64,000 bases of DNA from Planctomycetaceae bacterium (GTDB lineage: Bacteria; Planctomycetota; Planctomycetia; Planctomycetales; Planctomycetaceae): NCBI GenBank assembly GCA_002726205.1, contig PBSL01000066.1, positions 1 to 64,000 of the forward strand, in the 5' to 3' direction. The number at the start of each line of letters is the position of its first letter. The stretch's first letter is position 1. Of this stretch, positions 46 to 12,527 are shown one piece after another. Both the position numbers and the translations under genes were made by a program. A model generated the notes under the pieces. That model saw nothing but the letters and a program-made list of their open reading frames with translations, did no database searches and had not been told where the DNA came from.

Positions 46-61
46 TGGCACGACGATTGCA
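46..61 (+). promoter_or_regulatory. sigma-54 (RpoN) promoter of the groEL1 operon
   Basis: The site reads TGGCACG, four bases, TTGCA, preceded by T, so it matches every specified base of the -24/-12 consensus YTGGCACG-N4-TTGCW, with exact GG-N10-GC spacing. Transcription would start near base 72, leaving a leader of about 50 bases with a GGGAG ribosome site before the GTG of groEL1. Any activator site would lie mostly before the window start. No CIRCE repeat for HrcA is present. Function is inferred from sequence only. Confidence 0.85.
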
Positions 62-10934: not shown

Positions 10935-12182
10935 ATGATGAACCCGGTCCCCATGCGTACCTGCTTTCCCCACGCCGTTGCCGTCCTGCTGTTTGCCGCC
11001 GCCGGTCTGGCCGCGTGGCAGGTGCATGATGTCCTGCAACCGGCTCGAGCCGAGACGACCATCCTGTTCAATCACGGACTCGACCCGGTCGTGACCGCGG
11101 CTCCCGCGTCGTGGACCAACGCCTGGTGCGGCTCGTGTCACAAGCAGGAATATGCCCAGTGGCAGGAAAGTCGGCACAGCGTGGCGGGAACCAGCGACAC
11201 GTTCGTTGTCGAGTGCCTGGAACCCGGCAGCGGGCGGCAGCAGTTCTGCCTTAACTGTCACACGCCGCGGATCCCCGATCGGGGGCTGCCGACGGCCGAG
11301 CCGCCCGGACTCGACGATGCCTTCGGGGATCAGCCCGACTGGCTCACCGGCGGCGTCGACTGCCTGACCTGCCATGTGCGTGACGGAGTCGTTGTCGCCA
11401 CCCGGGTCACTTCACGGGGACTGGCCAAACATCCGATGCGAGAGGATTTTCGCCTGGGCCGGACCGAGTTCTGTGCGGGGTGCCACCAGTTCGCTTTCAA
11501 GGACTCCGACCTTCCCGATCGCTTCCACGGCGCCCTGCAGCAGGCCAGCCTGGAGGAGTTTCGCGAGTACAAGGCCGGGGGAGGAAAGGCGGCGCGATGC
11601 CACGAATGCCATATGCCCAAGGGAGGACACCTGATGCCTGGTGGCTTCTCCGACGAGATGGTCCGTCAAGCCGTTGGACTCGAACTCGACGCACGCTGGA
11701 TCGATCCGGGTCGCGAAGCCGAAGTGGCCGTGACGCTTCGAACCGGTCGCGTCGGCCACCGTGTCCCCGGAGGTGAGGAACTGCGGTTTCTGACGGCTCG
11801 GACCGAGGTGTACGACGCCGGAGGTCGAATGGTCGGCCGCCCTGTTTCCTCCGACAAGACTCATGAGCCGCTGGAGGGATGGCCGGCGGTTGAAACCCTG
11901 CGGAGGCTCATGGGGGACCGTGAACACGGCCGCGATCTGCAGGCCGCTCCCGCACCGGATACGCGGCTGAGATCGGGTGAAATCCGGCGGTATTCCTACC
12001 GGGTCCACTTCGATCCCGAGAGCCTCCGTGGATCACTGACAGTTCGTACCCGGTTGTGGTACCACCTGATGCACGACGGCAAGGCCGAACTGTTCGGCCA
12101 TCAGGCGGAGGATGTGCAACGCGTCGTTCGCGAAACCGAGGTCCGCCTGGATTTGCCCCGACCGGCGCCTACGGATCGGTGA
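10935..12182 (+). CDS. Exported five-haem cytochrome c
   Basis: Periplasmic multihaem cytochrome (415 aa) with an N-terminal Sec signal (AVAVLLFAAAGLAAW). Five CxxCH haem sites are seen: CGSCH at residue 65, CLNCH at 105, CLTCH at 143, CAGCH at 180 and CHECH at 222. The spacing and the WQESRHS segment after the first site resemble the cytochrome c-554 type of multihaem proteins. Residues 240-415 have no haem motif and look like a beta-rich domain. No oxidase or reductase gene is adjacent, so the electron partner is unknown. Confidence 0.88.
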   Translation: MMNPVPMRTCFPHAVAVLLFAAAGLAAWQVHDVLQPARAETTILFNHGLDPVVTAAPASWTNAWCGSCHKQEYAQWQESRHSVAGTSDTFVVECLEPGSGRQQFCLNCHTPRIPDRGLPTAEPPGLDDAFGDQPDWLTGGVDCLTCHVRDGVVVATRVTSRGLAKHPMREDFRLGRTEFCAGCHQFAFKDSDLPDRFHGALQQASLEEFREYKAGGGKAARCHECHMPKGGHLMPGGFSDEMVRQAVGLELDARWIDPGREAEVAVTLRTGRVGHRVPGGEELRFLTARTEVYDAGGRMVGRPVSSDKTHEPLEGWPAVETLRRLMGDREHGRDLQAAPAPDTRLRSGEIRRYSYRVHFDPESLRGSLTVRTRLWYHLMHDGKAELFGHQAEDVQRVVRETEVRLDLPRPAPTDR

Positions 12183-12354
12183 TCGCATCGATCAACTCGT
12201 GCGACCGCGGCATTCGAACCGTCGGCGGCATCCAGTGTCGGAACTCCTCGAGCCCGGATCGCTTCCACAGCGTGTCCTCGGACCACTCGGAGCGGATCCG
12301 TGCACACTCGTGTCGGATCTCGGCAGGTGTCGGCGTGTATTCCTGGCGGGCCAT
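12169..12354 (-). CDS. Conserved-looking 61-residue protein of unknown function, sigma-54 controlled
   Basis: Small soluble, charged protein (61 aa) beginning MARQEYTPTPAEIRHECARI and containing EWSED. No signal, membrane segment or known domain is visible. A strong GGAGG site lies eight bases before the ATG. The same reading frame is open upstream, but the region before this ATG contains the ribosome site and a sigma-54 promoter, so this start is chosen. Its 3' end overlaps the cytochrome gene by 14 bases, tail to tail. The opening resembles small planctomycete hypothetical proteins I have seen, an impression not checked by search. Confidence 0.72.
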   Translation of the reverse strand: MARQEYTPTPAEIRHECARIRSEWSEDTLWKRSGLEEFRHWMPPTVRMPRSHELIDAITDP

Positions 12355-12407
12355 GATGTGAACCTCCGGGGTGGGAGAGAATCTCCTGGACAGGTACCAC
12401 ATACAGA

Positions 12408-12424
12408 TGCAACGAGCGTGCCGA
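12408..12424 (-). promoter_or_regulatory. sigma-54 promoter of the 61-residue gene
   Basis: Read on the minus strand the site is TCGGCACG, CTCG, TTGCA: one mismatch (C for T before GG) to YTGGCACG-N4-TTGCW, with exact GG-N10-GC spacing. It points at the 61-residue gene; transcription would start near base 397 of this kilobase (12397), giving a leader of about 43 bases that contains the GGAGG site. Confidence 0.75.
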
Positions 12425-12480
12425 AGCGGGTGATTGACGTAACTGACTGTCAACCAGTTGTTTGCATCACGGGCCCACAG

Positions 12481-12506
12481 TGTCGCGCGTGGTGAATTTC
12501 GCGACA
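12481..12506. promoter_or_regulatory. Inverted repeat, candidate enhancer-binding site
   Basis: TGTCGCG and CGCGACA form a perfect 7 bp dyad with a 12-base spacer. The centre is about 96 bases upstream of the predicted sigma-54 start, the usual distance for a bacterial enhancer-binding protein. A second, weaker dyad (AACTG-N9-CAGTT) lies between it and the promoter. The activator is not identifiable from the window. Confidence 0.5.
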
Positions 12507-12527
12507 AGTGTATCGGATTGACACAGG

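Follow-up and report, generated by a model that had tools for sequence, protein, structure and literature searches.

A conserved planctomycete small-protein gene with a predicted sigma-54 promoter and tandem upstream sites

The locus described here holds a 61-codon gene (MARQEYTPTPAEIRHECARIRSEWSEDTLWKRSG...DAITDP) on the minus strand of the window, that is, the whole 64-kb stretch of DNA that was analysed, taken from the 4.86-Mb, GC-rich genome of a marine planctomycete, termed G000. The gene occupies 12172..12354, with its ATG at 12354 and its stop codon ending at 12172, and a Shine-Dalgarno sequence GGAGG (12363..12367, minus strand) lies 8 nt 5′ of the ATG in a CCGGAGG that is the same in four out of four species. 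Convergent with it is a multi-CxxCH (cytochrome c-like) ORF at 10935-12182 on the plus strand, the 3′ ends of the two overlapping by 11 nt. A longer frame of 112 residues (12507-12169) was dropped, its upstream portion being divergent and interrupted by a stop in the sister genome RS383. Upstream of the gene, a predicted sigma-54 -24/-12 element CGGCACGCTCGTTGCA spans 12408..12423 on the minus strand, proposed from its sequence and its conservation in sister genomes, and sets the predicted +1 at about 12397. It carries one mismatch to TGGCACGN4TTGCW and exact GG-N10-GC spacing, both as read in the original prediction, which had described a dyad, a -24/-12 element, GGAGG and a 61-codon frame; all of these were found on the minus strand where it had placed them, including the dyad TGTCGCG-N12-CGCGACA at 12481..12506. 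RpoN is encoded in the genome (PF04552 match, E 1.3e-61).

Singly, no element is improbable in so GC-rich a genome, so the case for the module rests on conservation. The pattern YGGCACGN4TTGCW occurs 8 times genome-wide compared with 5 for the reversed control, and sites scoring at least 20 with a -24/-12 matrix, made by hand from the known consensus, are not commoner in 2.0 Mb of G000 than in the control (67 vs. 62); the element at 12423-12408, taken alone, is not above the genome background. In the same way, 7-bp dyads with some gap are not rare in a 150-bp region, and the N12 dyad by itself gives weak support.

Orthologs of the small gene were found in three sister MAGs (RS395, UBA9460, and RS383) with 80-85% protein identity and collinear flanks (roughly 15 kb compared). 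The ORF is under purifying selection, with dN/dS of 0.05-0.10 (reference G000) and changes mostly at third codon positions, and together with the orthologs this bears out the earlier view that the frame is not random: the small protein is real and selected. In the intergenic alignment the -24/-12 element is kept across the four species, appearing as CGGCATGCTGCTTGCA or CGGCACAGTCCTTGCA in the sister genomes with 13/21 columns identical, the RBS forms another conserved island, and an upstream block holds 24/36 identical columns versus 21/63 in the stretch between block and promoter. As judged from this conservation, the predicted promoter and the ORF are real. The relatives thus retain the promoter, RBS, ORF and left arm of the dyad, as the original prediction would have it, while the right arm of the dyad (12487-12481) is lost.

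Because that right arm is missing in the three relatives, the N12 dyad is not the conserved unit, and it was ruled out as the activator site it had been taken for. Its exact sequence is also unique in the 4.86-Mb genome, so that the proposed search for other genes carrying it returned no second copy. The conserved unit is instead a tandem of dyads with N5 gaps. Predicted activator site 1, TGTGTC-AATCC-GATACA (6-N5-6; 12509..12525, minus strand), is centred about -120 from the predicted +1, reads TGTATC/CGTATC-N5-GATACA in the three sister genomes, and is the sole 11/12 match to TGTMKC-N5-GMKACA within the 64-kb window. Predicted activator site 2, TGTCGC-GAAAT-TCACCA (12490..12506, minus strand), is centred at about -101 and shares its left arm with the N12 dyad; its right arm is degenerate in G000, the three relatives have TGTCGC-GGAAT-GCGMCA, and TGTCGCG is invariant in the four species. 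The pair TGTRTC-N5-GATACA, 2 nt, TGTCGC-N5-GCGMCA spans window positions 12525-12490, and the common form of both dyads, spaced 2 nt apart, is TGTMKC-N5-GMKACA, as in UBA9460 (CGTATC-AAAGT-GATACA and TGTCGC-GGAAT-GCGACA). Each genome has a single copy of the combined 26-bp block when up to three mismatches are allowed. The N5 form was derived from the alignment post hoc, and its best support is its recurrence at a second promoter in two other genomes (G190 and G191), described below.

The protein had been called an orphan, which proved wrong: it is one of a family of small planctomycete proteins, and within the GTDB family 49/170 genomes have a match at 1e-4. Across the phylum, 12 of 392 evenly drawn genomes had a match at 1e-6, all but one of them within the same GTDB family. 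The family motif is YxPTPxEIRxxCxxIQxxWSxxExxxR, with P, I, C, I, W, and R invariant in the family alignment A1. Searches of Pfam, NCBIfam, PHROGs, and PDB returned no relative of note. The AlphaFold2 model (pLDDT 76, pTM 0.40) has two short helices, at residues 10-22 and 26-32, with a tail of low confidence, and fold comparison of this model matched nothing meaningful. The product is most likely a small helical protein working through partner binding, and it may be the tightly controlled effector or regulator that was originally suggested.

Upstream of 70 family members, 13 elements scoring at least 20 were found within 350 nt, against control values of 0 (reverse strand), 0 (downstream), and 0.25 (dinucleotide shuffles), although 3 of the 13 come from close sister genomes and the counts are not fully independent; the excess over controls is still large without them. 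Of the best 30 members, 11 had an element of 20.5 or more in those 350 nt, against none on the reverse strand or downstream and about 0.05 in shuffles; the remaining, more distant members gave 2/40 at 20 or above. As the matrix was hand-made and the test devised after viewing a few members, the exact p-values, at about 1e-4, err on the optimistic side. Sigma-54 control thus appears, from these predicted sites, not to be family-wide, the distant members being mostly without the element. One distant member in another genome, G120 (L135), has a perfect -24/-12 element; it converges on the gene of an NtrC-type regulator and lies near a hybrid histidine kinase. The background counts given above would suit a chance -24/-12 look-alike and dyad, with the small ORF run from an ordinary promoter, yet the elements are kept in three relatives despite the divergence of much of the intergenic sequence, and the top family members have upstream -24/-12 elements more often than the controls, which makes such a coincidence very unlikely. 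Conservation, the promoter excess in the family, and dN/dS together support the original picture of a sigma-54 promoter and upstream activator element before a real small protein.

Genome searches for the tandem pattern with two mismatches returned 3 to 9 matches per genome versus 1 to 7 in the reversed control, and most of these matches are chance. In G190 and G191, the sequence CGTATC-N5-GATACA-CG-TGTTGC-N5, with a right arm after it that matches in part, lies 136 and 137 nt, respectively, upstream of a strong predicted sigma-54 promoter aatTGGCACACC(A/G)AGTGCA, and by this recurrence the tandem dyad seems to travel with sigma-54 promoters. The segment 3′ of this promoter is conserved between the two genomes (blastn, 85% over 99 nt); in G190 it terminates in a long hairpin followed by eight Ts, and the G191 contig stops before the terminator position. 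The stretch of about 105 nt (105 nt as folded) has a folding energy of -43.8 kcal/mol (z -3.9) and had no match in Rfam. On the strength of the tandem site and conserved promoter, we regard it as a candidate sigma-54-dependent small RNA gene under the same activator, located on the minus strand of L198 (G190:C162) and L193 (G191:C308). Within the 2.0 Mb (41%) of G000 that was searched, neither a copy of this small RNA nor a tandem site beside another strong promoter was found. A candidate RNA under the same tandem site raises the thought that the transcript, not the 61-residue protein, is the product of our gene as well, which we consider extremely improbable given the dN/dS of its frame, the third-position changes, the conserved RBS, and a family recognizable at the protein level in distant genomes.

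We think it very probable that the locus is a sigma-54-dependent unit whose product is a conserved small protein of planctomycetes, switched by an enhancer-binding protein (EBP) via the tandem upstream sites. Sequence and conservation support the predicted promoter, tandem site, RBS, and an ORF under purifying selection, while EBP binding, a start site near 12397, and stress as the signal are what we infer. A trans-encoded EBP would bind both 17-bp dyads of the tandem, some 95-130 bp before the start, and contact RNA polymerase-sigma-54 parked on the -24/-12 element; on signal it would open the promoter, giving a tightly gated output of the 61-residue protein. Upstream dyad sites of an EBP-activated unit are expected about 80-150 bp before +1, where the tandem 6-N5-6 dyads indeed lie. 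Seven strong EBPs are encoded in the genome, none of them on this contig, and no convincing dyads, which would be a sign of autoregulation, were seen near the EBP genes examined. The lack of an EBP linked to the gene, the decay of one arm of site 2 in G000, and the absence of the block from the other sigma-54-like promoters examined would all agree with a real gene and sigma-54 promoter whose upstream block is a repressor or nucleoid-protein site; we hold this to be unlikely, since dyads in tandem about 100-120 bp before +1 are an arrangement typical for EBPs, and since two genomes carry the block again at another sigma-54 promoter.

As to the signal of the proposed EBP-switched unit, family neighbours and sigma-54 elements on stress genes point to stress without proving it, and the gene probably falls within a stress regulon, by association only. 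CsbD genes are present in 18/40 related planctomycete genomes, and CsbD loci (L147-L176) carry a -24/-12 element scoring at least 20 in 14/30 cases (vs. 1 and 0). CsbD-like genes lie near family members in G016 and G008, that of G016 adjoining and having its own -24/-12 element. Other neighbours, which vary by genome, are a ribosome-hibernation-factor-like gene (G011) and PP2C-like genes (G027, G061). The tandem site was absent from the CsbD and chaperone promoters examined, being shared only by the second promoter of G190 and G191; no activator motif common to the CsbD and other family promoters was found among those examined, save that G009 has a possible 10/12 site at an equal offset, which was judged weak. 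In the window itself, a groEL-like gene has a consensus -24/-12 element TGGCACGACGATTGCA at 46-61 (plus strand), 59 nt before its start and 45 nt from the contig edge, which leaves the activator site region out of view. Elsewhere in the searched part of G000, strong -24/-12 elements precede a DnaK-like and two UspA-like genes (L224:17559, minus; L278:12773, plus; L229:9798, plus), these names and that of groEL being read from translated starts, and most other G000 sites of this kind are background.

The PspF/pspA, ZraR/zraP, and NorR units likewise combine a sigma-54 promoter with upstream dyad sites, and some of their products are small and stress-induced. In these and similar EBP units the activator gene is usually adjacent, whereas here none is on the contig and the protein matches no Pfam family. 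CsbD-type stress proteins are also small, stand behind sigma-54-like promoters, and neighbour family members in two genomes, but they have no sequence relation to the 61-residue family and another conserved motif. Vibrio Qrr RNAs are sigma-54-dependent small RNAs; the second unit of G190 and G191 resembles them in looking like a terminator-ended small RNA driven by sigma-54, and differs in lacking an Rfam match and in being likened without a quorum-sensing context. Studholme and Dixon reportedly predicted the sigma-54 regulon of Pirellula in 2004. A predicted Planctomycetia sigma-54 regulon (PMC12316311), in the parts consulted, has chaperone and UspA genes enriched among its targets, with NtrC-type activators and, like here, -24/-12 promoters on GroEL, DnaK, and UspA; it differs in being an analysis by COG category, and those parts name neither the small-protein family, CsbD, nor such an activator site. 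For a thioredoxin gene, a stress study of R. baltica (PMC2754498) mentions that a sigma-54 promoter has been proposed.

The regulatory module is real and is now defined better than before: it joins a newly defined, not previously described small-protein family, which has a clear regulatory signature, to a tandem site that is testable as an activator site. The finding adds to the idea that planctomycete sigma-54 serves stress genes that elsewhere are under RpoS, SigB, and heat-shock sigma factors. A dedicated EBP at tandem TGTMKC-N5-GMKACA, running a two-target circuit of small protein and small RNA within a sigma-54 general stress response that replaces RpoS/SigB in planctomycetes, is possible, if somewhat doubtful; the small protein and candidate small RNA under one element point to a small private genetic switch.
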